DNA of 64,000 bases from Aliiroseovarius sp. Z3. Lineage in GTDB: Bacteria; Pseudomonadota; Alphaproteobacteria; Rhodobacterales; Rhodobacteraceae. Every line of letters begins with the position of its first letter. Positions within the stretch are counted from its first letter, which is position 1. The stretch is taken from NCBI RefSeq assembly GCF_029105185.1, contig NZ_JAFMZK010000003.1:124001-188000 (forward strand). The letters are read 5' to 3'. The notes beneath the pieces are model-generated. The model made no database searches. It was not told the DNA's origin and saw only the letters and a list, made by a program, of their open reading frames with translations. Positions 40,753 through 59,968 of the stretch are shown piece by piece. Made by a program: the position numbers and the translations under genes.

Positions 40753-40900
40753 CACCCCACGTGCTCCCCAGCACCACAAGCGACTTTGAAATTCGGGTCC
40801 AGCCATCCTAGCCTTCAGTTGGACATTAGCGGCCTGCGCATCACCGCGCAAGCATGCTTTGTATACAATATTATTCGAAATCAATAAGTTAATGCTTCAT

Positions 40901-40930
40901 TAATAAAGGCGCCGCCGAAATGGCAGCGCC
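40901..40930 (-). terminator. Rho-independent terminator of the DUF2853 gene
   Basis: On the minus strand: GGCGCTGCC, five-base loop, GGCGGCGCC, then TTTATTA. Nine pairs with one G-T. It begins 22 bases after the stop. Confidence 0.75.
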
Positions 40931-41293: not shown

Positions 41294-41463
41294 TTTGGTC
41301 TCCCATAAATTTTACCAATAGGCCGAGGCCCAATTCGTCAACGAGACTAAGCACAATCTTAAATTGGTCAAAGGAAAAGTTTGCCGCCGTATTCCCCCTA
41401 GGCATCTGGTTCGATTTCACGCAGGATGTCACCGATCGCATGTTTTTTGTAATGGAGGAAACT

Positions 41464-46653: not shown

Positions 46654-46979
46654 GCACAGGTCTGCCCCTGACGCCCGGTCGCATCGCGCCAGCCCACGAA
46701 CCGTTCCCGTGTGAAGGTCAGCACCAGGTCATTCCATTGCAGTTGCCGAACGACACCGGTCGGGCATCCCTCCAGCGGCAAGGCCACATGGCGGCCAAGC
46801 TCACGATCCATCGCTGGCACCACACCTTTGGGAGAGCGTCCAAAATCTATCCGTTTGTTCACCGGATCAACTTGAAGCCCCGTGGCATCGGGGCGAATGA
46901 CCACCGCGCTTCGGGTTGGGGCAGGCGCGACGCAGGCCGTCAGGCCGGCCAGCACAGCAAGAAGGACCAGTATTCGCAT
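46650..46979 (-). CDS. Small lipoprotein
   Basis: 109 residues. The signal MRILVLLAVLAGLTACVAP has a clear lipobox with Cys16. The mature part has no family I recognise. It has one Cys pair candidate (EGCPTG and the C-terminal QTCA). Its start overlaps the regA stop (TAATG), so it belongs to the senC-regA transcript, in the place where Rhodobacter species carry hvrA. Confidence 0.75.
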   Translation of the reverse strand: MRILVLLAVLAGLTACVAPAPTRSAVVIRPDATGLQVDPVNKRIDFGRSPKGVVPAMDRELGRHVALPLEGCPTGVVRQLQWNDLVLTFTRERFVGWRDATGRQGQTCA

Positions 46980-47533
46980 TACTTTGGGCTACGCTTGGCC
47001 AGGATACGCTGCAAGGTGCGGCGGTGCATGTTCAGACGCCGCGCAGTTTCCGAGACATTGCGGTCACAAAGCTCATAAACGCGCTGGATATGCTCCCACC
47101 GGACCCGATCCGCCGACATTGGGTTTTCAGGCGGAGGCGGCATGCCATCCGACTTTGCCAGCAGCGCATTCATCACGTCATTCGCATCCGCTGGCTTTGA
47201 CAGGTAATCATTTGCACCGATTTTCACCGCAGACACGGCGGTGGCAATCGCACCATACCCGGTCAACACCACAATTCGTGCATCCGGGCGTTTTTCTCGA
47301 ATGGTTTCAACCACGTCCAGCCCGTTGCCATCGTCCAGCCGCAAGTCAACCACGGCATAGGCGGGCGGGCGGGCCGTGGCAATCGCCTTACCGGCAGCTA
47401 CTGATCCAGCAGTTTCCGGCGCGAATCCTCGTTTTTCCATTGCGCGCGCCAGACGACGTAAAAACGGCTCGTCATCATCCACAAGCAGCAGGGATGCGTC
47501 CTCACCGATCGCTTCTAGTTCCTGTGCCGTCAT
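46979..47533 (-). CDS. regA: Redox response regulator RegA (PrrA/ActR)
   Basis: 184 residues, the exact RegA length. The receiver has LLLVDDDEPFLRRLARAME, phospho-acceptor D63 in VVDLRLDDGNGLDVV, VVLTGYGAIATAVSAVKIGANDYLSKPAD in parts. The Fis-type helix-turn-helix is WEHIQRVYELCDRNVSETARRLNMHRRTLQRILAKR in parts, nearly invariant in the family. It controls respiration, carbon and nitrogen fixation and, where present, photosynthesis genes by redox state. Confidence 0.97.
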   Translation of the reverse strand: MTAQELEAIGEDASLLLVDDDEPFLRRLARAMEKRGFAPETAGSVAAGKAIATARPPAYAVVDLRLDDGNGLDVVETIREKRPDARIVVLTGYGAIATAVSAVKIGANDYLSKPADANDVMNALLAKSDGMPPPPENPMSADRVRWEHIQRVYELCDRNVSETARRLNMHRRTLQRILAKRSPK

Positions 47534-47616
47534 CCGACCAACCTCCGGTTCGCGTCTTATTCAACTTTACCTATGCGTTTCGCACCGTAAGGTCAATTTC
47601 AACGCGCCGATATTGG

Positions 47617-48246
47617 CTATTTGTCTGAGGCATCAATGAAACATCCCACCCGGTCCGCCATCTGCGCCGGTGTCTCATCCCGCTTGAAAAAATCGGCAAA
47701 ACCAGTGTCGGGGAACATCAGATAGGTAAAGGTCGAATGATCTATCAGATAGTATTCTTCCTGACCCTCTTCCGGCTCTTGCTTGCGATAATAGGTCTTG
47801 TAGGCTTGGCTTGCGGCTTTCACCTGTTCGGGCGTGCCGGTCAGTCCGATCATGTCTTCGTGCATGTAGCTGGTGAAATCGGCCAAATGCTCGGGCGTAT
47901 CCCGCTCTGGGTCGATCGAGATGAACGCGGATTGCACGTCATAGCCACGATCCTGCAACAGGCGCATCGCCTCGGCATTACGTGCGTTGTCCAGCGGACA
48001 GACATCCGGGCAGAACGTGTAACCAAAGTATACCAGCGTCGGTTTTGTGATCACATCTTTGTCGGTCACCAGCTTGCCGGTTTCGTCGGTCAGCTCGAAC
48101 GACCCGCCGATGGATGCCACACCCGTACCAACAGTCCCGGCGCGGCATTGTGCAAACTTGTCAGCCTCGCCGGTTGTGACGTACCAGGTTGCGCCCAGCA
48201 AAGCTGCGACGGCAACGGCCGCGGTAACTGCATATACACGCATCAT
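47617..48246 (-). CDS. senC: SCO1/SenC copper chaperone (PrrC)
   Basis: 209 residues from ATG 48246, with AAGGAG upstream; the open frame to 48504 opposes regB and is rejected. One membrane anchor (VYAVTAAVAVAALLGATWYV) leads to a thioredoxin fold. Copper ligands are the two Cys of FCPDVCP and the His of LIDHSTFTYLM. It helps assemble the Cu-A or Cu-B site of cytochrome oxidase. Divergent from regB; regA lies 83 bases downstream. Confidence 0.94.
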   Translation of the reverse strand: MMRVYAVTAAVAVAALLGATWYVTTGEADKFAQCRAGTVGTGVASIGGSFELTDETGKLVTDKDVITKPTLVYFGYTFCPDVCPLDNARNAEAMRLLQDRGYDVQSAFISIDPERDTPEHLADFTSYMHEDMIGLTGTPEQVKAASQAYKTYYRKQEPEEGQEEYYLIDHSTFTYLMFPDTGFADFFKRDETPAQMADRVGCFIDASDK

Positions 48247-48338
48247 CGGCTTTCTCCTTGATCCTTCGTCGGCATTGATCGTCCTTTTGTGCAGGACTAA
48301 CAAGGGACCAGAATGACGCAACCCAAAACCAGCAAGCG

Positions 48339-49766
48339 ATGGATCACATGATCGAGAATAGCACAGGCCCTTTGAACCATCGCATGTTTCACGACGATGG
48401 CGAAATGTTGCCCGGTCGCTGGGTCCGCCTTCGCACATTGGTGGTGCTGCGCTGGGCGGCCATTTTCGGGCAGATCGCCGCCATAATAGTGTCGATCTTT
48501 GCATTCTCGCTGAACATCCCGCTTGGCTGGGCAGCCGTTGCGGTTGGGCTGGCGGTGATCGCCAATCTGGTCTCGCTCGCCGTGTTTCCCAAGAATGCGC
48601 GTCTGAATGAGCGGGACGCGACAGGGATGCTTTTGTTCGACACGCTGCAGCTGGCTTTCATGGTGTTCCTGACGGGCGGGCTGCACAACCCGTTCATGGT
48701 GTTGATCGTGGCACCTGTCACGGTGGCCGCGACCGCCCTGTCCACGCGTGCGACCGTGATCGTCGGCAGTGTTGCGATTGCCGCCACAACGGCGGTTGCA
48801 GATTTCAACATCCCTTTGCACACCTATGACGGTGTAACCGTGCTTATGCCCGATCTGTTCGTGTTCGGCATCTGGGTCGCCGTGGTCACTTCAATCGGCT
48901 TCGTGGGCCTTTACACACGCCGCATCTCGTCCGAGATGCGGTCGATGTCCGAGGCCCTTCTGGCCACACAGATGGCCCTGTCCCGCGAACAGAAGTTGAC
49001 CGATCTTGGCGGTGTCGTGGCCGCCGCCGCGCACGAACTTGGCACGCCGCTGGCCACCATCAAGCTGGCCGCATCCGAGCTTGTCGATGAGCTGGACAAT
49101 CAGGCGGATCTGCGCGACGACGCCGCCCTGATTGGCCAACAGGCTGACCGATGCCGGGATATTCTTCAGTCGATGGGCCGGGCAGGCAAGGACGACATGC
49201 TGATGAAAAGCGTGCCCCTTGTGACACTGGTGGAAGAGGCCGCCGAACCCCATGCAGATCGTGGCAAGGCGCTGGAAATCTCGGTCGTGTCGCAGCTCAA
49301 CGATCCGTCGGACGAACCTGTCGTCGCGCGTCGGCCCGAGGTCATCCATGGCCTGCGCAACCTGATTCAGAATGCGGTCGATTTCGCGACAACGACAGTC
49401 TGGATCGAAATTGATTGGACCGAAGCTGAGATCAAGCTGCGGATCATTGACGATGGTCGCGGCTATGCCCCGCAAGTAATCGGCTGGATCGGGGATCCTT
49501 TCATACGCGGCAAGAAACCCGCGCAGGACAAGGGTCAGCGGCGTGGATACAAAGGGATGGGGCTGGGGCTGTTCATCGCCAAGGCCCTGCTGGAACGGAC
49601 CGGCGCCAAACTGAGTTTTGCCAACGGAACCGAACCGTACACTGGCCGACCGCACCCGCGCGAGAAATCAGGCGCCATTGCACAGGTCATCTGGCCCCGC
49701 ATCGCCGGGGGGATCGAACAAAAACCAACCGAAGGCGGGCTGGGCGACAACATCCCGTTTCGGTGA
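48339..49766 (+). CDS. regB: Redox sensor histidine kinase RegB (PrrB/ActS)
   Basis: 475 residues. Six membrane helices occupy about 33-195. The quinone-linked motif GGLHNPF lies at 113-119. H-box AAAHELGTPLATIKL gives H232. The redox-active Cys of RegB is C272 in ADRCRDILQSMG. N, G1 and G2 boxes are NLIQNAVDF, IIDDGRGY and GMGLGLFIAK. It phosphorylates RegA when quinone and Cys are reduced. Divergent from senC with a 92-base shared promoter. Confidence 0.97.
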   Translation: MDHMIENSTGPLNHRMFHDDGEMLPGRWVRLRTLVVLRWAAIFGQIAAIIVSIFAFSLNIPLGWAAVAVGLAVIANLVSLAVFPKNARLNERDATGMLLFDTLQLAFMVFLTGGLHNPFMVLIVAPVTVAATALSTRATVIVGSVAIAATTAVADFNIPLHTYDGVTVLMPDLFVFGIWVAVVTSIGFVGLYTRRISSEMRSMSEALLATQMALSREQKLTDLGGVVAAAAHELGTPLATIKLAASELVDELDNQADLRDDAALIGQQADRCRDILQSMGRAGKDDMLMKSVPLVTLVEEAAEPHADRGKALEISVVSQLNDPSDEPVVARRPEVIHGLRNLIQNAVDFATTTVWIEIDWTEAEIKLRIIDDGRGYAPQVIGWIGDPFIRGKKPAQDKGQRRGYKGMGLGLFIAKALLERTGAKLSFANGTEPYTGRPHPREKSGAIAQVIWPRIAGGIEQKPTEGGLGDNIPFR

Positions 49767-49778
49767 CGTCGCCAACAG

Positions 49779-49793
49779 TTAAACCTTCATTAA
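49779..49793. promoter_or_regulatory. CtrA-type site TTAA-N7-TTAA
   Basis: TTAA, seven bases (ACCTTCA), TTAA, and then CC. This equals the full CtrA consensus. It lies 59 bases before the PAS-protein ATG. It was the only TTAA-N7-TTAA I found in the intergenic stretches I scanned. Confidence 0.6.
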
Positions 49794-49852: not shown

Positions 49853-51448
49853 ATGGGTGCGCCTATGTTTAATACATTGCTTGTAATCGGTGTTGTCCTT
49901 GTCGCATTTCTGATCGCCTTCGTTGCGCTTCTGTCCCTGTCCTGGGTGGACGCGCGGCGGCGCAAAAGCCTGCGTGATGATGCCTTCACCTCTGATGGCC
50001 AGTTGGTGTTTCTGTTCGACGACGAAACCCTGTGCGACGCCACATCAGCTGCGCGTCAAATGATGCTGGCCGGTCGACCCGCCGGACAAGAAACGGATTG
50101 GCAGCGGTTTGCACAGCTGCTTCAAAACCGCTTTCCCGATCTGACGAAGCATATGGGCGATCTGGCCGATCTGGGCACGCTGTCCCTGACCTCTGCCGAT
50201 GGCACCAACCGGATAGTTGCAGAATGGCGCAATGGTCTGGCCCGGATTGAGCTTATCGATAATGAAAACCACACCCCCAACAAAGCAGTGGACCAGTTGA
50301 GCTTGGACGCAATGCAGCACGAACTTGCAAGCCTGCGCGCCACGTCCGAGCACCTGCCGCTGATGGTCTGGCGCGAGGACGAAGACGGAACCATCACTTG
50401 GGCCAACAAATCCTATCTGGATCTGGCTGAGAAGATGCGCGATCCGGCCGATCAGGCAGCATGGCCACCGCATAAAGTTTTCCAGCGGGGGACGTTGGTG
50501 GATGTCGATGATCTGCCCCAGCCCGGACGCATGGCGATCCAGCTCCCGGATGATGAAACACGGCGCTGGTTTGATCTACATGACGCAGAATTGGGCAAGG
50601 ATAGGCTCTATACTGCAATTCCTGCCGATCGGGTTGTGCAGGCGGAAACTTCGCGCAACGAGTTTATTACAACTCTGACCAAAACCTTTGCGCATCTGCC
50701 CATTGGTCTTGCCATCTTCGACCGCAAGCGGCAGCTGACGCTGTTCAATCCCGCGCTTACCGATCTGATCGCCCTGCCGGTGGATTTCCTTGTCGGACGG
50801 CCAACCCTGTCCAGCTTTCTGGACCGTCTGCGCGAGAAACGCATGATGCCCGAGCCGAAAGATTATATTTCGTGGCGGCAGCGAATGTCTGATCTGGAAG
50901 CAGCGGCGGTAAATGGCACCTATGAAGAAACATGGTCGCTTCCCACCGGTCAGACCTATCGCGTCACGGGACGGCCCCACCCGGACGGCGCGGTTGCATT
51001 TCTGTTTGAAGACATCAGCGCAGAGATATCCCTGACCCGTCGCTTTCGGGCCGAGCTTGAGATGGGTCAGGCCGCGCTGGACAGCCTTGACGACGCCGTT
51101 GCAATCTTCAACGCTGGCGGCGTTCTGGCCATGTCCAACAAAGCCTATAGCGTATTATGGCAGGACGACCCGTCGACCACTTTGGGCGATGTCAATCTTG
51201 GGGATGCCGTCAAGACATGGCGCAAGGTCTGTGCAGACACGCCGCTTTGGCGGCAACTCAAAGAGTTCGTTGCCACCAACGCTGAGCGTGAGGCGTGGAG
51301 CGAGTCCGTGATGTTGTCTAATGGCCAGATGCTGACCTGCTCGGTCACTCCGATGATGCGCGGCGCAACAATGGTTCGGTTCACGACTGCGGCAACATCG
51401 GTGCAGGCAACACCGCCCGCGGAAAAGTTCCTGACGGCTGGCGTGTGA
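49853..51448 (+). CDS. Membrane-anchored PAS-domain protein without kinase domain (possible DivL relative)
   Basis: 531 residues. An N-terminal helix (FNTLLVIGVVLVAFLIAFVALL) is followed by an N-terminal sensory region and three PAS-like segments. They start near LMVWREDEDGTITWANKSYL, FAHLPIGLAIFDRKRQLTLF and LDSLDDAVAIFNAGGVLAMS. The protein stops about 25 residues after the last; no H-box or ATPase domain exists in this frame or in the 41 bases before tsaE. Position before tsaE and the CtrA site suggest the cell-cycle protein DivL, with the kinase part lost. ATG 49865 is an alternative start. Confidence 0.72.
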   Translation: MGAPMFNTLLVIGVVLVAFLIAFVALLSLSWVDARRRKSLRDDAFTSDGQLVFLFDDETLCDATSAARQMMLAGRPAGQETDWQRFAQLLQNRFPDLTKHMGDLADLGTLSLTSADGTNRIVAEWRNGLARIELIDNENHTPNKAVDQLSLDAMQHELASLRATSEHLPLMVWREDEDGTITWANKSYLDLAEKMRDPADQAAWPPHKVFQRGTLVDVDDLPQPGRMAIQLPDDETRRWFDLHDAELGKDRLYTAIPADRVVQAETSRNEFITTLTKTFAHLPIGLAIFDRKRQLTLFNPALTDLIALPVDFLVGRPTLSSFLDRLREKRMMPEPKDYISWRQRMSDLEAAAVNGTYEETWSLPTGQTYRVTGRPHPDGAVAFLFEDISAEISLTRRFRAELEMGQAALDSLDDAVAIFNAGGVLAMSNKAYSVLWQDDPSTTLGDVNLGDAVKTWRKVCADTPLWRQLKEFVATNAEREAWSESVMLSNGQMLTCSVTPMMRGATMVRFTTAATSVQATPPAEKFLTAGV

Positions 51449-51489: not shown

Positions 51490-51987
51490 ATGTCGCAGGC
51501 GTTTTCTCATCAAGCTCTCTTTCCCTCACCGGATCACACCCGAAAATTTGCGGAAAACCTGTCGGCATCCCTGCACAGCGGCGATGTAATCCTGTTGGAA
51601 GGCGGAATTGGCGCCGGAAAGACCCATTTCGCCCGTTCACTCATACAAGCATTGCAAGCCAAATCAGGCCGCGTCGAGGATGTTCCCTCGCCGACATTCA
51701 CGCTGGTTCAAACTTATGACGTTGAACCATCCGAGGTATGGCACGCCGACCTTTACCGCCTGTCTCATCCCGACGAGATCGAAGAACTGGGCCTGACGCA
51801 GGCTTTCGACGATGGCATCTGCCTTGTCGAATGGCCCGATCGGCTGGGTGATCTGTGGCCTGAAAACGCCTTGCTCATGTCATTTGAGATCGAAGAAACT
51901 TCTGATCACCAGGATCAACGCGTGATCACATATTCCGGCGACAAAGACCTGTGGCAGCGCCGCGTTCTGGACGCGCTGCCGTCATGA
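51490..51987 (+). CDS. tsaE: tRNA t6A biosynthesis ATPase TsaE
   Basis: 165 residues. Walker A is LEGGIGAGKTHFARSLIQAL; then DVPSPTFTLVQTYDV, VWHADLYRLSHPDEIEELGL, and GICLVEWPDRLGDLWP, all TsaE landmarks. It supports TsaD-TsaB in t6A synthesis. The stop overlaps amgK (ATGA). Confidence 0.95.
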   Translation: MSQAFSHQALFPSPDHTRKFAENLSASLHSGDVILLEGGIGAGKTHFARSLIQALQAKSGRVEDVPSPTFTLVQTYDVEPSEVWHADLYRLSHPDEIEELGLTQAFDDGICLVEWPDRLGDLWPENALLMSFEIEETSDHQDQRVITYSGDKDLWQRRVLDALPS

Positions 51988-52997
51988 TGGCGCGCGCGCA
52001 ACAAAGGATACAGTTTTTAACGGATGCCGACTGGCAGTCTGCATCTGCTTCACCCATCTCTGGCGATGCCTCCGCACGCTCATATCAGAGACTAACACAC
52101 CCTGAAACAAAGCAAACGGCGATCCTGATGGACGCTCCGACAGATCGCAATGGATCGTCTGCGCCCTTTCTGTCAGTCGCACGATATCTAACAAAGGCGG
52201 GCCTGTCGGCACCCGACATCTTCGCCCAGGATCTTGAGGCGGGTTTCCTGCTGCTCGAAGATCTTGGCGACGCGCTTTTCGCAAGTGTGATCACAAAAGA
52301 TGCGGCGCAAGAGCAACCACTTTATGAAGCCGCCGTTCACGTGATCTGCCGACTGCATGAACACCCAAACCCAAACCTGCCGCTTTATGGTCCTACACAG
52401 ATGGCCCAGGCAACGGACCTGGCATTTCTGTATTATCGGACCACGCCGACCAGGACTCTCACCCACAACGCGCGGCGCGCGATTGACCAGTTAAACGAGC
52501 ACCTGTCGCAGTTCGACGAATTCAACTGCGTCTCCCTGCGCGATTTCCATGCCGAGAACCTGATCTGGCTTCCAGACCGGATAGCAGACGCGCGCGTTGG
52601 CCTTCTGGATTTCCAGGACGCCGTGCGAACGCATCCCGCCTATGACCTGATGTCGCTGATCCGGGATGCCCGTCGCGACGTATCGCCCAACCTGGAAGAC
52701 CATCTGATATCGAAATTCTGCCAAATCAAAGGCTATGACGAGGTGTCCTTTCGGGCTGAGGCTGCGTTGATCTCGGCCCAGCGTAACCTGCGCATTCTGG
52801 GCATCTTCGCCCGCTTGTCGCGCGTGATGATGAAACCCCATTACGTTAACCTGATCCCGCGGGTCTGGGCGCATTTGCAGACCGACTTGTCACACCCATC
52901 ACTTGCAAAGCTGTCCGCGACACTGACCCCGCTTCTTAACCCGCCAACCCCGACCTTTCTGCAAACGCTGAGGGCACCATGCCAACCGCCGCAATGA
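51984..52997 (+). CDS. amgK: N-acetylmuramate/N-acetylglucosamine kinase AmgK
   Basis: 337 residues from ATG 51984. APH fold: SGDASARSYQRL, LLLEDLGDALFA, catalytic SLRDFHAENLIWLPD and metal-binding VGLLDFQDAVRTHPAYDLMSL. The neighbour MurU and this fold point to the anomeric sugar kinase of the cell-wall recycling bypass (MurNAc to MurNAc-1-P). It overlaps murU by 19 bases. Confidence 0.9.
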   Translation: MMARAQQRIQFLTDADWQSASASPISGDASARSYQRLTHPETKQTAILMDAPTDRNGSSAPFLSVARYLTKAGLSAPDIFAQDLEAGFLLLEDLGDALFASVITKDAAQEQPLYEAAVHVICRLHEHPNPNLPLYGPTQMAQATDLAFLYYRTTPTRTLTHNARRAIDQLNEHLSQFDEFNCVSLRDFHAENLIWLPDRIADARVGLLDFQDAVRTHPAYDLMSLIRDARRDVSPNLEDHLISKFCQIKGYDEVSFRAEAALISAQRNLRILGIFARLSRVMMKPHYVNLIPRVWAHLQTDLSHPSLAKLSATLTPLLNPPTPTFLQTLRAPCQPPQ

Positions 52998-53671
52998 TCT
53001 TCGCAGCCGGTCGCGGCACGCGCATGGGCACATTGACCCAAACGCTTCCGAAACCGATGATCCCGGTGGCGGGCAAACCGCTGATCGACCATGCACTTGC
53101 CCTTGCCGACGACAGCCCGATCGAGCGTGTCGTCATCAACCTGCATCATCTGGGCGACCAGATCGCCAATCATCTTGGGCACCGGGACATCCGGTTTTCC
53201 AATGAAGACGGTCAGTTGCTTGAAACCGGAGGCGGGCTGAAAAAGGCTCTAACCTTGCTTGAAAGCGATGTTGTGATCACGTTGAACTCCGATGCCGTCT
53301 GGACCGGGCCAAACCCGATTCAATCCCTGCTTGCGGCTTGGGATCCAGATAGGATGGACGCGCTTTTGATGCTGGTGGCGCCGGAAAACGCCATCGGGCA
53401 CAAGGGCGCGGGTGATTTTCTGAAGGCAGAGGACGGAATGCTTCGTCGCGGCGCGGGCCTGACCTATACCGGGTGCCAGATTATCAAGACCGACCCTGTC
53501 GCGGCCGTCGCCGAGGATGTATTCTCGCTCAACACCGTATGGGATCAGTTGCTGGAAAACAGGCGTCTGTTTGGAATCGAACATCACGGACGCTGGTGCG
53601 ATGTTGGCCACCCGGAGGGGATCACCCTTGCGGAAACCATGCTGAGGGATGCCAATGTTCGATCCGTCTGA
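52979..53671 (+). CDS. murU: N-acetylmuramate-1-phosphate uridylyltransferase MurU
   Basis: 230 residues of the nucleotidyltransferase fold. The nucleotide motif is MIFAAGRGTRMGTLTQTLPKPMIPVAGKPLIDH in parts, with VITLNSDAVWTGPN for metal binding and the late HHGRWCDVGHPEGI. It makes UDP-MurNAc from MurNAc-1-P and UTP, completing the recycling bypass with AmgK. GAGG precedes the ATG. Overlaps addB. Confidence 0.92.
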   Translation: MPTAAMIFAAGRGTRMGTLTQTLPKPMIPVAGKPLIDHALALADDSPIERVVINLHHLGDQIANHLGHRDIRFSNEDGQLLETGGGLKKALTLLESDVVITLNSDAVWTGPNPIQSLLAAWDPDRMDALLMLVAPENAIGHKGAGDFLKAEDGMLRRGAGLTYTGCQIIKTDPVAAVAEDVFSLNTVWDQLLENRRLFGIEHHGRWCDVGHPEGITLAETMLRDANVRSV

Positions 53672-56600
53672 CACCCCACGCATCTTCGGCACGCCGCTGG
53701 GTGTCGACTTCCCGAAAGCCCTGGTCACCGGCATCTTGCAACGCATTGCGCCCACCAATCCGGAGGATCTGGCGCGCGTCGAAGTGTTTGTGAACACGAG
53801 CCGGATGCAATCCCGTGTCCGCTCATTGTTTGACGGGCAGACGCTGTTCCTGCCACGCATCCGCCTGATCACCGATCTGGCCCGCGATCCGGCATTGCAC
53901 GAGGTGCCGCTGCCGGTGCCGCCCCTACGACGACGGTTGGAACTGCGCCAGCTTATCGCCGCCCTTCTGGAGCGAGAGCCGGATCTTGCCCCAAAAACAG
54001 CCGCCTTTGATCTTGCCGACAGCCTGGCCGATCTGATGGATGAGATGCACAGCGAAGGCGTGCATCCGCGAAACCTTCAGGCGCTTGATGTAGGCGAGAT
54101 GTCTGAGCATTGGGCGCGGAGCCTTAAGTTCATCGCGCTGGTCGAACACTATTTCGACCATGAAACATTGGACCTGCCCGACGTCGAAACACGCCAACGC
54201 ATGGTGGTCGAGGCGACCATCGCAAAATGGCGCGCGCATCCACCAGAACATCCTGTATTGATCGCAGGCTCGACCGGGTCACGGGGGGCAACGGCGCTTT
54301 TGATGGAAGCGGCTGCGTCCTTGCCATTGGGTGCCGTGATCGTGCCGGGCTTTGATTACGATATGCCAGATCAGACTTGGGCAGAGTTAGACAATGATTT
54401 TTCGACTCAGGATCATCCACAATATCGGTTCGCGCACTTACTGCAACGCGTCGGCCTGATATCATCCGATGTGATGCGCTGGACGTCGGACGCACCGCCC
54501 GCGCCCGAGCGCAATCGGCTGGTCTCACTCGCCTTGCGCCCGGCGCCCGTGACAGACCAATGGCAGGTTGAGGGCAAGGCGTTTCAAGGCATCGAGGCGG
54601 CAACCGAAAACCTAACCCTGATCGAAACCCGCACCCCGCGGGCAGAGGCATTGGCGATCGCCACCGTGCTGCGTCGATCGGTTCAGGATGGCAGGTCTGT
54701 GGCCTTGATCACCCCGGATCGAAATCTGACCCGGCAGGTGGCGGCCGCGCTGGACCGCTGGCGGATCGTTCCTGATGACAGCGCCGGGCGCCCGCTTGCC
54801 CTGTCAGCGCCGGGGCGATTGCTGCGCCAGTCCGCACAGCTTCTGTGTGAAGAAACGAGCGGCGAAATGCTGCTGGCCTTGTTGAAACACCCGTTGACCC
54901 ACAGCACCGCGGGCACACGGGGCGACCACCTGCGCTGGACCCGCGACCTTGAGCTGGACGTCCTGCGCGGGCGGTATGCGCCGCCAAATGCGGCGGCGTT
55001 GACCGATTGGGCCTCCAAATTCCCCGATGAACCCGCACGCGCCATTTGGGCCAACTGGGTCGTTGAAACATTTCTGAACAAGATGCAGCAGGGTGAGCAT
55101 TCACTGACGTCTCTGGTTGCTTGGCATCGAAGCCTGACCGAACAGATTGCGCGCGGCTGTGCGCAAGAAGGAACGGGTGAACTGTGGGAGCAATCTGCAG
55201 GACAAAAGGCGCTTGAAGCAGTCTCTGATCTTGCAGAAAATGCAGAATTCGGCGGGCAACTATCGGCACCGGACTATCGCGATCTGCTGGTATCCGTTCT
55301 AAACGCTGGTGTGGTGCGCGACCCCATTACCCCGCATCCCGGTGTAATGTTCTGGGGCACGCTTGAGGCGCGCGTCCAGGGCGCGCATCGTGTCATTCTG
55401 GCGGGGCTAAACGACGGAACATGGCCCGAACTTCCCGGCCCTGATCCATGGTTGAACCGAAAGATGCGGATGGACGCCGGGCTGTTGTTGCCGGAACGTC
55501 GCATTGGCCTGTCCGCGCACGATTTTCAACAAGCCATCGCAACGGCCGAGGTCTTTTTGACCCGGTCCACCCGCGACGAAGACAGCCAGACCATTCCGTC
55601 GCGCTGGCTGAACCGTTTGTGCAACCTGATGGGCGGCATGTCCGAGGCCGGCGAAGAAGCGCTTTGGGAAATGCGCAACCGGGGCGCTAAGTGGTCAGAT
55701 CTGGCAGAGCGGCTGGACGCAGCCCAGGAACCGGTCGCACCTGAGCCACGCCCATCACCCGCACCCCCGGTCTCAGCTCGGCCCACGGCGCTTTCGGTAA
55801 CGGGGGTAACGAAGCTGATCCGCGACCCCTATGCGGTTTATGCCGACAAAGTGCTGCATCTCAGGCCGCTTGACCCAGTGCGCCAAACCGCTGATGCGCG
55901 CATCCGTGGCACGGTTCTACACCGCGTTTTCGAACGCTACGTCGCAGAGGCTGTGCAGACAGACGATCACACTGCGGAAACCGCGCGCCTGATGAACATC
56001 GCCGAAGACGTTCTGGAAGAACACGTACCGTGGCCCGCCACGCGTATCCTTTGGCTGACCCGGATCGGTCGCGTCGCCGACTGGTTCGTCGCCGAGGAGC
56101 GGGACCGGCGCGCCAAAGCGCACAATCTGGCCAACGAAGTCTGGGGCGAGGCTGTGTTTGACGACATCGGCTTCACCCTTCGTGCCAAGGCGGATCGGAT
56201 AGATCAGCGCCATGACGGGCAGCTGGAGATTTACGATTACAAATCCGGCCAGCCGCCATCCGAGAAGATGCAAAAGCACTATGACAAGCAACTGTTGCTA
56301 GAGGCTGTGATTGCCAAGTTGGGCGGGTTTAGAGACATATCCGCCGCACCGGTAGCGAGCGTTGCCTATATCGGCCTGACCCCACAAGAAACGAAACCCG
56401 TGCTGCTGACACCTGAAGAAATCGACGTGATTCAGAATGAGCTGCTGATCCTGATCCAAGCCTATCACAGCCCGGATCAAGGCTTTACCGCGCGGCGAGC
56501 GGTGCACAAACAGCGGTTTGATGGTGATTATGATCACCTTGCCCGCTTCGGCGAATGGGACGACAGCGCAGAGCCGGTGACGTTACGGGTGGGGCAATGA
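53655..56600 (+). CDS. addB: Double-strand-break repair nuclease AddB
   Basis: 981 residues from ATG 53655, which has GAGGG at good spacing; ATG 53649 is too close to it. The alphaproteobacterial AddB pattern shows an inactivated helicase body and a C-terminal PD-(D/E)xK nuclease: GTVLHRVFERYVAE, then LEIYDYKSGQPPSEKMQKHYDKQL in parts. No Cys cluster surrounds the nuclease, so the iron-sulfur site of Bacillus AddB is absent. The stop overlaps addA (ATGA). Confidence 0.94.
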   Translation: MFDPSDTPRIFGTPLGVDFPKALVTGILQRIAPTNPEDLARVEVFVNTSRMQSRVRSLFDGQTLFLPRIRLITDLARDPALHEVPLPVPPLRRRLELRQLIAALLEREPDLAPKTAAFDLADSLADLMDEMHSEGVHPRNLQALDVGEMSEHWARSLKFIALVEHYFDHETLDLPDVETRQRMVVEATIAKWRAHPPEHPVLIAGSTGSRGATALLMEAAASLPLGAVIVPGFDYDMPDQTWAELDNDFSTQDHPQYRFAHLLQRVGLISSDVMRWTSDAPPAPERNRLVSLALRPAPVTDQWQVEGKAFQGIEAATENLTLIETRTPRAEALAIATVLRRSVQDGRSVALITPDRNLTRQVAAALDRWRIVPDDSAGRPLALSAPGRLLRQSAQLLCEETSGEMLLALLKHPLTHSTAGTRGDHLRWTRDLELDVLRGRYAPPNAAALTDWASKFPDEPARAIWANWVVETFLNKMQQGEHSLTSLVAWHRSLTEQIARGCAQEGTGELWEQSAGQKALEAVSDLAENAEFGGQLSAPDYRDLLVSVLNAGVVRDPITPHPGVMFWGTLEARVQGAHRVILAGLNDGTWPELPGPDPWLNRKMRMDAGLLLPERRIGLSAHDFQQAIATAEVFLTRSTRDEDSQTIPSRWLNRLCNLMGGMSEAGEEALWEMRNRGAKWSDLAERLDAAQEPVAPEPRPSPAPPVSARPTALSVTGVTKLIRDPYAVYADKVLHLRPLDPVRQTADARIRGTVLHRVFERYVAEAVQTDDHTAETARLMNIAEDVLEEHVPWPATRILWLTRIGRVADWFVAEERDRRAKAHNLANEVWGEAVFDDIGFTLRAKADRIDQRHDGQLEIYDYKSGQPPSEKMQKHYDKQLLLEAVIAKLGGFRDISAAPVASVAYIGLTPQETKPVLLTPEEIDVIQNELLILIQAYHSPDQGFTARRAVHKQRFDGDYDHLARFGEWDDSAEPVTLRVGQ

Positions 56601-59600
56601 CGATAAACGACGCAACGCGCAGCCAGATCCGCGCGGCTGACCCGCAGAACTCGACCTGGTTGTCGGCCAATGCGGGCTCGGGCAAGACCCGCGTGCTGAC
56701 CGACCGCGTCGCGCGGTTGCTGCTTGAAGGCGTGTCACCACAGAACATCCTGTGTTTGACCTATACCAAGGCGGCCGCCAGCGAGATGCAGAACCGCCTG
56801 TTCAATCGTCTGGGTGAGTGGGCAATGAAGGATGACGCGGCGCTTACCTCGGCGTTGCACGACCTTGGCTTGGACGGGAGCCGTGATCTGTCGCTTGCCC
56901 GGCAATTGTTTGCCCGCGCGATTGAAACCCCCGGCGGATTGAAGATCCAGACCATCCACGCCTATGCTGCCTCTCTCTTGCGTCGCTTTCCGATGGAGGC
57001 CGGTGTTTCGCCGCAGTTCACCGAAATGGATGACCGCACCGCCAAAGACCTGCGGGCCGACCTGCTTGATCGGATGAGCGATGGCCCCCTGGCGCAGCAT
57101 GTCACCGCCCTGTCGCAGCACTTCACCGGCGAAGACATGGCGCAACTGACCGCCGAGATTACGGGCAATCGCACCCTGTTCATCGATCAACCCACCGATG
57201 CCCAGATTGCCAGTTGGTTCGGCGTGTCGCCTGCATTGGATGAGCGTGCCATTCTGGACGCGCTGTTTCAGCCCGGCGATCTTCGAATGCTGGCCACGCT
57301 TCGTGACATTCTGGCAACCGGCAGCGCCACTGAGCAGAAAGCGGCAGCACATCTGACCGGCGCGGATCTGAGCACCCCATCCTTTGACATACTGGATCGG
57401 TGCGCGCGGTTTATGATCAACCAGAAACCACCATATTCCGCCAAATCAGGGTCTTTTCCGACCAAGGCCATGCGCGCTGGCGGGTGCGCAAGCGTCACCT
57501 CGCAACTGGACGAGTTCATGCAGCGGGTCGAAGACGCGCATCTTGCCCGGATTGCGCTTTCCAACGTCAGACGCACGACCGCGCTACACAGGTTCGCCCA
57601 TCATTTCGTGCAGCTCTATGAAGAAGCAAAGCTGGCGCGGGGGTGGCTGGATTTCGACGACCTGATCCTGAAGGCGGGGGCGATCCTGACCGACCCGGCC
57701 ATCGCCTCGTGGGTGCTGTTCCGGCTGGATGGGGGGATCGACCATATTCTGGTGGACGAAGCCCAGGACACCAGCCCCGCGCAATGGCGCATCATCGACA
57801 GCCTTGCGCGTGAATTTACAAGCGGTATCGGTGTGCGGGACGATGTCGAGCGCACGATATTCGTGGTCGGCGATCCCAAGCAATCCATCTACTCGTTTCA
57901 GGGGGCCGAGCCTGCGGCGTTCGATCAGATGCGCGCCACCTTTGCCGACCGCCTGTCGCAGATTGGGCGTGGTCTGGTTCAGATGCCTTTGGAATACTCA
58001 TTCCGGTCGTCACCTGCGGTTCTGGAGTTCGTGGATTTTGCGATGCAAGGGCGGAGCGGTCTGGGCGGGGACTTCCTGCACCGCGCGTTCTTCACTGACC
58101 TGCCGGGCCGGGTCGACCTGTGGCCGGCAATCGAACCTGTCACCCATGACGAAGACCGCGACTGGCATGATCCGGTGGATGCTCCATCACCGCAGGACCA
58201 TCGGGTTCAACTGGCCGAGAATATTGCCAGCGACATCGAACGCATGATCAGAACCGAGACTATTCCTGCGGAAAATGGCGAAAACCGCCCGGTGCATGCC
58301 GGAGACATTCTGGTGCTTGTGCGATCCCGCAAAGAGCTGTTTCACGAAATCATCCGCGCCTGCAAAGCCCGTGCTATACCCATTGCCGGTGCAGATCAGT
58401 TGAAAATCGGGGCGGAGCTGGCGGTCAAGGATCTGACCGCACTTCTGTCTTTTCTGGCAACGCCCGAAGACGACTTGTCGCTCGCCGCGATCCTGCGCTC
58501 GCCCCTCTTTGGGTGGTCCGAGGACGACTTGTTCCGGTTGGCGCATCCGCGCAGCAAGGGCAAGTTTCTTTGGCGGGCGTTGTCCGAGAAGGCGGATCAA
58601 CATTCGCAGACGTTAAGCGTGTTGCAAGACTTACGTGACACAGCCGACTTTCTGCGCCCCTATGAATTGCTGGAACGCGCATTGACCCGCCATGGTGGCC
58701 GTCAGAAGCTGCTGGCGCGATTGGGGCAAGAGGCCGAAGACGGCATCGACGCCTTATTGGCCCAGGCCATCGGCTATGAACGATCCGGCACGCCCAGCCT
58801 GACCGGGTTTCTGACCTGGCTTCAAACCGATGATGTCACGATCAAACGTCAGATGGATTCGGTGGGGCAGCAGGTTCGGGTGATGACGATTCACGGATCA
58901 AAAGGGTTGGAATCCCCAATCGTGATTCTGCCTGATCTGGCCCAGCAAAAGGCGTCCTCGATGCCCGCAGTTGCCAAGCTTCCCGATGGGCAGGCGTTCT
59001 ATTCCCCCAAGTCAGAAAACCGAACAGAGGCGATCGACGCTGTGGCGCGCGACTTAAGGGACGCCGATATCGAAGAGCGTGCGCGGCTGCTTTATGTTGC
59101 GATGACACGGGCGGAACGTTGGTTAATTCTGGCCGCGGCGGGATCGATCGGAAAGCCCGACTCGGATGTTTGGTATCGCATTTGCGAGGGTGCGATGAAC
59201 AAGGCGGCTGGTATCGAATGCGCGTTTCCCACAGGCCCGGGAAAGCGATTTGCGGCAGGCGATTGGCCTGCGCCCGCAGTAAACGACAAAGCTGAGATCG
59301 AAGATTGCCCATCCGACCTGCCTGATTGGTTGACTGCGCGTGCGGAAACGCCAGCGCCGTCAGTCAAGCCAATCTCGCCGTCCGATCTGGGCGGGGCAAA
59401 GGCGCTTGCCGGTGAAGATGCCTTTGGCAGCACGGATGACGCAAAAAAGCGTGGGCGGCAGATACATTTGTTGCTGGAACATCTTCCGGGCATTCCGGCA
59501 TCCAAATGGGAGGACACAACCCGGTTCCTGCTTGGGTCGGGTGATGATCGCGCGACGGATCTTGAACAATCCGCGCTGCTTGATGAGGCGGCTGGCGTGC

Positions 59601-59968
59601 TGACCGACCCCGATCTTGCGCCAATCTTCGCGCGTCCCGACTTGGCCGAAGTGCCAGTCACCGCCAACTTGCCGCAATTCTCTGGCCGTCTTCTGCATGG
59701 GGTGATTGATCGGTTGATCATCGCTGACAACGACGTGCTAGCAGTGGATTTCAAAACCAACCGCATCGTGCCCGCGACCCCTGAAGACACGCCGGACGGG
59801 CTGCTGCGTCAATTGGGGGCTTACCGGGCCGTGCTTGCCCAGATCTTCCCCGAGAGGAATGTGAACACCGCGATCTTGTGGACACAAAGCCGTGAGTTGA
59901 TGCGTTTCGATAATGCTTTGGTGGATGCGGCTTTCAGGCACCTTGACGCAACCCGCTTGCCTACCTAG
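56597..59968 (+). CDS. addA: Double-strand-break repair helicase-nuclease AddA
   Basis: 1123 residues from ATG 56597. UvrD-type motifs: I LSANAGSGKTRVLTDRV; Ia LTYTKAAASEM; II ILVDEAQDTS; III VVGDPKQSIYSFQGAEP; IV LEYSFRSSP; V VMTIHGSKGLESPIVIL; VI LLYVAMTRAERWLIL. The C-terminal nuclease has VLAVDFKTNR. With AddB it processes DNA ends for RecA. The start overlaps the addB stop. Confidence 0.96.
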   Translation: MTINDATRSQIRAADPQNSTWLSANAGSGKTRVLTDRVARLLLEGVSPQNILCLTYTKAAASEMQNRLFNRLGEWAMKDDAALTSALHDLGLDGSRDLSLARQLFARAIETPGGLKIQTIHAYAASLLRRFPMEAGVSPQFTEMDDRTAKDLRADLLDRMSDGPLAQHVTALSQHFTGEDMAQLTAEITGNRTLFIDQPTDAQIASWFGVSPALDERAILDALFQPGDLRMLATLRDILATGSATEQKAAAHLTGADLSTPSFDILDRCARFMINQKPPYSAKSGSFPTKAMRAGGCASVTSQLDEFMQRVEDAHLARIALSNVRRTTALHRFAHHFVQLYEEAKLARGWLDFDDLILKAGAILTDPAIASWVLFRLDGGIDHILVDEAQDTSPAQWRIIDSLAREFTSGIGVRDDVERTIFVVGDPKQSIYSFQGAEPAAFDQMRATFADRLSQIGRGLVQMPLEYSFRSSPAVLEFVDFAMQGRSGLGGDFLHRAFFTDLPGRVDLWPAIEPVTHDEDRDWHDPVDAPSPQDHRVQLAENIASDIERMIRTETIPAENGENRPVHAGDILVLVRSRKELFHEIIRACKARAIPIAGADQLKIGAELAVKDLTALLSFLATPEDDLSLAAILRSPLFGWSEDDLFRLAHPRSKGKFLWRALSEKADQHSQTLSVLQDLRDTADFLRPYELLERALTRHGGRQKLLARLGQEAEDGIDALLAQAIGYERSGTPSLTGFLTWLQTDDVTIKRQMDSVGQQVRVMTIHGSKGLESPIVILPDLAQQKASSMPAVAKLPDGQAFYSPKSENRTEAIDAVARDLRDADIEERARLLYVAMTRAERWLILAAAGSIGKPDSDVWYRICEGAMNKAAGIECAFPTGPGKRFAAGDWPAPAVNDKAEIEDCPSDLPDWLTARAETPAPSVKPISPSDLGGAKALAGEDAFGSTDDAKKRGRQIHLLLEHLPGIPASKWEDTTRFLLGSGDDRATDLEQSALLDEAAGVLTDPDLAPIFARPDLAEVPVTANLPQFSGRLLHGVIDRLIIADNDVLAVDFKTNRIVPATPEDTPDGLLRQLGAYRAVLAQIFPERNVNTAILWTQSRELMRFDNALVDAAFRHLDATRLPT

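Follow-up and report, generated by a model that had tools for sequence, protein, structure and literature searches.

DivL connects signals of cell fate with the CckA-ChpT-CtrA relay. The full-length protein of Caulobacter crescentus (PMC4211667; PDB 4q20) has a membrane anchor and tandem PAS domains followed by a DHp-CA part with Tyr550, which binds phosphorylated DivK (DivK~P); in Caulobacter, CckA is activated by DivL as long as DivK~P is not bound to this DHp-CA part (PMC4211667). Childers et al. 2014 reported that alphaproteobacteria without DivK are frequently also without the DHp-CA part (PMC4211667), CtrA control of divL was predicted for Rhodobacterales by Brilli et al. 2010 (PMC2877005), and short DivL proteins were mapped over this order by Vega-Baray et al. 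2022 (PMC9430884). The last of these papers describes long degenerate DivL proteins in Oceanicella and Albimonas, one species in which a short DivL occurs together with a horizontally acquired DivK, and the CckA inhibitor Osp. The main features of the short DivL of Rhodobacterales are thus already in print, in papers dated 2010 to 2022 (PMC2877005, PMC4211667, PMC9430884). The short DivL of Rhodobacter capsulatus (rcc00042; PMC9430884, PMC2877005), from the same order as the gene described here, is likewise PAS-only, occurs without DivK and is predicted to be under CtrA control, and no difference from our protein was found when the two were compared by description and not by sequence. According to a paper on SqrR that cites Westbye 2018, phosphorylation of CtrA in R. 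capsulatus is promoted, by way of CckA, by the PAS protein DivL (PMC9143464).

The window, a stretch of 64,000 nucleotides from Aliiroseovarius sp. Z3, carries on its forward strand (49853..51448) a short divL gene encoding a membrane-anchored protein of 531 aa with four PAS folds and without a DHp/CA (kinase-like) part. Translation may in fact begin at the second ATG (49865), which corresponds to the start assigned in a close homologue (L002). Identity to the products of 29 other family loci was 41-84 %. The Pfam scan returned PAS models and two insignificant others, with neither HisKA nor HATPase_c found in the protein. An AlphaFold2 model (mean pLDDT 87.2, pTM 0.46, with 64 family sequences as alignment input) consists of one N-terminal helix and four PAS folds, all features being on the forward strand. 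The helix (residues 4-45, 49862..49987) has a basic RRRK stretch and likely contains the membrane anchor, and the PAS folds were modelled at residues 51-136 (50003..50260), 171-257 (50363..50623; Pfam PAS_8 at 161-192), 284-387 (50702..51013; Pfam PAS_7 at 280-392) and 415-512 (51095..51388). Most invariant residues of the family fall in the third fold; over 64 family sequences, 28 columns are invariant. The protein ends 19 residues after the fourth fold, with low model confidence at residues 516-526, and no output helix follows the last PAS strand, which ends at residue 512. In five of six relatives aligned at the PAS end the chain runs on as a helix plus a SYQLRTPL-type motif, and only L148 is short, like the window protein. 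By fold, the closest solved structures are the tandem PAS proteins PpsR, DosP and FixL. The membrane anchor and tandem PAS domains are shared with Caulobacter DivL, whereas the Tyr-DHp domain and the CA (ATPase-like) domain of the full-length type are both missing. The first-pass annotation had proposed a membrane-anchored PAS protein lacking a kinase domain; the open reading frame, the anchored PAS array and the missing kinase were all borne out (by Pfam, and by an end right behind the last PAS strand), but its count of three PAS segments was replaced by four in the model.

The conserved upstream neighbour of divL is the regB sensor kinase gene (48339..49766, forward strand; NCBIfam NF045988, 688 bits, cut-off 570), which is accompanied on that side by regA and a presumably SCO1-like gene, RegA and RegB having been assigned by NCBIfam. 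Downstream and on the same strand, tsaE (51490..51987; TIGR00150, 102 bits, cut-off 60) starts 41 bases after divL at position 51490, followed by amgK (51951..52997; best NCBIfam model NF045698, 246 bits, under the cut-off of 500), murU (52979..53671; best NCBIfam model NF045697, 183 bits, under the cut-off of 370) and open reading frames at 53649..59968 that we take to be addB and addA, as named in the earlier annotation. The 80 named loci examined, each with neighbours of the Rhodobacteraceae type (Aliiroseovarius, Celeribacter, Thioclava, Leisingera, Octadecabacter and others) and many of them from metagenome bins, contained matches to RegB (78/80), TsaE (69/80), AmgK (71/80), MurU (71/80) and AddB (75/80); some of these loci were cut by contig ends, and the counts are gene matches, with the order checked for part of the genes. 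Outside the family, 39 loci were taken together with as much as 5 kb of downstream sequence, and a TsaE or AmgK match was present at 18 of them, so the tsaE-amgK locus is common to some long DivL forms, not all. The RegB-RegA redox system (46979-49766) lies directly upstream of divL, which may point to a connection of divL with redox control (compare PMC7232146).

A phmmer search of the window protein against the PDB gave chance matches only and no DivL, because the solved part of DivL is the part missing here, and no DivL model match was obtained in NCBIfam. The DivL identity was therefore argued by way of long relatives. A PAS profile was made from 24 aligned members of 30 translated family loci, and of the 289 genomes in the class 172 had a match to it. 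Most DivL-related proteins outside the family are about 250 aa longer at the C-terminus, and the longer alphaproteobacterial proteins with a homologous PAS region are mostly of 650-1000 aa. Long forms were found at 129 of the 140 places read outside the family, and 105 of the 129 have Tyr at the H-box (SYQLRTPL or SYELRTPL), where kinases have His; His was found in 6 of the other 24, and the rest have other residues or an unreadable H-box. L124, the one long Tyr form tested, had 4q20, 'Sensor protein DivL', as its best PDB match, at E 1.2e-57 compared with 2.9e-35 for the second best. The family PAS profile retrieved the PAS parts of Tyr-type DivL outside the family with E values down to 1.8e-63, and in a tree of the PAS parts a branch with full support separated the family from 40 other forms. 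By profile and tree the PAS part of the window protein is homologous to that of Tyr-type DivL, that is, of long relatives whose C-terminus matches 4q20.

PAS proteins are common, and with RegB matched at 78 of the 80 relatives' loci an unrelated PAS sensor, for example a partner of the RegB-RegA redox system, might have replaced DivL here. This is very improbable given the profile's best matches outside the family, which were Tyr-type DivL and not unrelated PAS sensors, the sharing of the tsaE locus by some Tyr-type DivL and the CtrA box in the promoter of the window gene, and the PAS homology to Tyr-type DivL led to its rejection.

A divL gene was present in 195 of the 196 sampled genomes of the order, all of one family and including the genome of the window. 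DivL from the 30 translated family loci has 520-562 aa, and the open frames at the 80 named loci, measured from stop to stop, have 520-695 aa, with no match to the kinase part in or behind the DivL open reading frame (profile of 14 long DivL C-termini, E <= 1e-3). All 110 family loci read, some species being in both sets, have a short DivL. The loss of the kinase part suspected in the window gene is thus common to its relatives, and the PAS-only DivL is the usual state in Rhodobacterales. Breaks do exist among DivL proteins, such as the overlapping PAS and kinase open reading frames of L289 (genome G335), and a short protein could in principle be a decayed or truncated full-length DivL (a pseudogene, frameshift or assembly error). 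Against such decay stand the near-universal retention of the gene in the family (195/196), the 28 invariant columns over 64 sequences, the conserved promoter box and the absence of a kinase-part match at the 80 loci; we give practically no credence to a decayed copy, which was rejected on this family-wide conservation.

The genome was searched for a separate full-length DivL, the finding that according to the first-pass annotation would count against its reading, and none of Tyr type was found among the 20 readable H-boxes of 25 HATPase matches, all 20 having His and the other five being unreadable. A long-DivL query, a fragment of the PAS part and about 130 residues behind it, recovered only the window gene at E <= 1e-25. 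One kinase of the genome (L032) scored 192 bits with the long-DivL C-terminal profile, in the range of weak long forms, and has His at the H-box. Two divL paralogues have been reported in several Rhodobacterales (PMC8116508, PMC6473078), and in Dinoroseobacter shibae a PAS-kinase-receiver hybrid was counted as a second DivL (PMC6473078). The relay itself is represented by CtrA (432 bits, over the curated cut-off of 350), by ChpT (over its cut-off) and by a CckA-like hybrid kinase for which CckA models were the best (533 bits, below the NCBIfam cut-off of 1000), with 832 aa of an 851-aa open frame scored as the candidate was cut at the locus end. No DivK was found in the genome with the DivK profile at E <= 1e-30, and its two single-domain regulators are not DivK-like; a member of this profile matched 1m5t 'DivK' in the PDB at E 8e-62. 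Over the family genomes, 2 of 196 matched at E <= 1e-30 (G121 and G141), both weakly, with 115 and 135 bits against 172-245 bits for the DivK matches of other genomes.

The gap between regB and divL contains, at 49779..49793 on the forward strand, a perfect TTAA-N7-TTAA motif, which we take to be a CtrA box. Perfect sites of this kind numbered two in the window against 0.08 expected; the other lies at 40889-40903, 537 bases before an open reading frame at 41440 that presumably encodes a LysM protein. A CtrA box was present upstream of divL in 78 of the 80 named relatives, 42-89 bases before the assigned start, compared with an average of 0.21 of 80 after shuffling and 1.75 of 80 for windows drawn at random from these loci. 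At long DivL loci, which were scanned around the open-frame start and not a known gene start, so that the comparison with 78/80 is a rough one, 4 of 98 with DivK and none of 26 without carried the box (4/88 and 0/8 for loci of at least 50 % GC); it was found at none of the 11 short DivL loci outside the family. The box predicted upstream of divL in Rhodobacterales is thus present in the window. In sum, the window DivL differs from the Caulobacter protein in the missing DivK~P-binding DHp-CA part with its Tyr550, and no DivK partner was found for it; its promoter carries a CtrA box that is rare upstream of long forms (4/88).

The open reading frame is, with high confidence, the short PAS-only DivL of Rhodobacterales, which most likely would bind CckA, favour its kinase state and raise phosphorylated CtrA (CtrA~P). 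A long DivL reads phosphorylated DivK through a pseudo-histidine-kinase DHp-CA part with Tyr for His behind its tandem PAS domains, and this family lacks both the DHp-CA part and, at the thresholds used, DivK. With both gone, the simplest reading would be that the remaining membrane-anchored PAS array binds CckA and holds it in the kinase state, and that CckA in this state would raise CtrA~P. Inputs to the short DivL would be signals perceived by the PAS domains and CtrA-dependent transcription of divL, which would form a positive loop, presumably restrained by further inhibitors (Osp, for example, in some relatives). The Rhodobacterales form shows that the PAS part can persist when the pseudokinase part that reads DivK is missing; this is of use in working out what each half of DivL does.

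PAS domains frequently act as protein-protein modules. In accord with this, and with the DivL identity unaffected, the short DivL might sense nothing and do no more than anchor or stabilise CckA, its PAS domains being docking modules; this variant has an appreciable chance, although below an even one. Against it, four predicted PAS folds, the third with most of the invariant residues, would seem much for an anchor alone.

The association between DivK and the length of DivL was followed over the class in a census of 140 places in 139 of the 168 extra-family genomes with a PAS match, the other 29 (weaker, unlisted or not fetched) being left out. Of these places 129 were long and 11 short, where a match to the kinase part was enough for a long call, so that a few may not be DivL, and where DivK was called at E <= 1e-45, a threshold at which a distant DivK would be missed. 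One short copy (L286) lies beside a long DivL in the same genome (G199). With this second copy left out, short DivL was found in 8 of 35 genomes without DivK versus 2 of 104 with DivK. Counted over 76 families (genomes at least 90 % complete plus f1, with DivK or a short form scored if any member has it), it was found in 7 of 15 families without DivK versus 1 of 61 with DivK (Fisher p 2e-5). Several short calls are doubtful, namely those in G335 (frameshift or split gene), G241 (a stop inside the match), G477 (the only short form of three in its family) and G338 and G436 (a remnant of about 170 aa). The family count became 6 of 15 (p 1.4e-4) without the frameshifted f6, 5 of 15 (p 9e-4) without f6 and f73, and 4 of 14 (p 4e-3) with f1 also removed. 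On a quick tree, no fewer than seven switches between the short and the long state of DivL were required. A phylogenetic pair test was not significant, about 1.9 of 10 pairs differing in the same way, none in the opposite way and 8 not at all; the link between absence of DivK and truncation is therefore consistent, with its independence from ancestry not shown by this 10-pair test.

Family f148, two genomes of one genus (G387 and G479, 98 % and 94 % complete), has a short DivL with open frames of 609 aa (L144, 1033-2859, forward strand) and 593 aa (L148, 1081-2859, forward strand) that end 15 residues past the PAS match. No comparable long DivL was found in either genome (next matches at most 127 bits versus about 300). 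In the tree of PAS parts these proteins are nested among long forms, and their truncation was apparently independent of the Rhodobacterales one. Like the window protein they are PAS-only; unlike it they keep DivK, which lies beside pleD (231 bits in both genomes), and no CtrA box was found in the stretch scanned at their divL.

Among the 196 family genomes sampled, G138 alone (L386, L391) gave no DivL match; it has tsaE directly behind the RegB gene, with no CtrA box in the regB-tsaE stretch, and its ctrA is interrupted at codon 184 by an in-frame stop, which in this single genome is possibly a sequencing error. We tentatively propose, while judging it somewhat less probable than its contrary, that the kinase half has been lost several times, usually with DivK but uncoupled from it in f148, and that loss of divL may free ctrA. 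If so, DivK in f148 would either reach CckA through a different partner or have no effect on it, the conserved unit that activates CckA would be the PAS array by itself, and loss of even the short DivL, as in G138, may release ctrA from selection. The f148 case with its DivK and the natural divL deletion of G138 would make the division of labour between the DivL halves directly testable. The f148 short DivL with DivK, the 76-family DivK count and the G138 ctrA nonsense codon may be new, no report of the f148 or the G138 case having been recognised in the DivL literature searched, a coverage in which subscription papers were mostly not included.

The PAS and kinase parts of L289 (G335) lie in two overlapping open reading frames, and the split is a frameshift, a sequencing error or a real fission, which leaves its short call doubtful. 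The kinase part is in intermediate decay in L290 and L291 (f139), L321, L325 and L379 (f22, genomes less than 90 % complete) and L345 and L349 (f73), all in genomes without a DivK match, the H-box being unrecognisable or only a remnant being left. Six long DivL-like proteins have His at the H-box (L319, L364 and L370 in f41, L154 and L308 in f93, and L145 in f6); four of the six have a TsaE or AmgK match nearby, and they are possibly active kinases.
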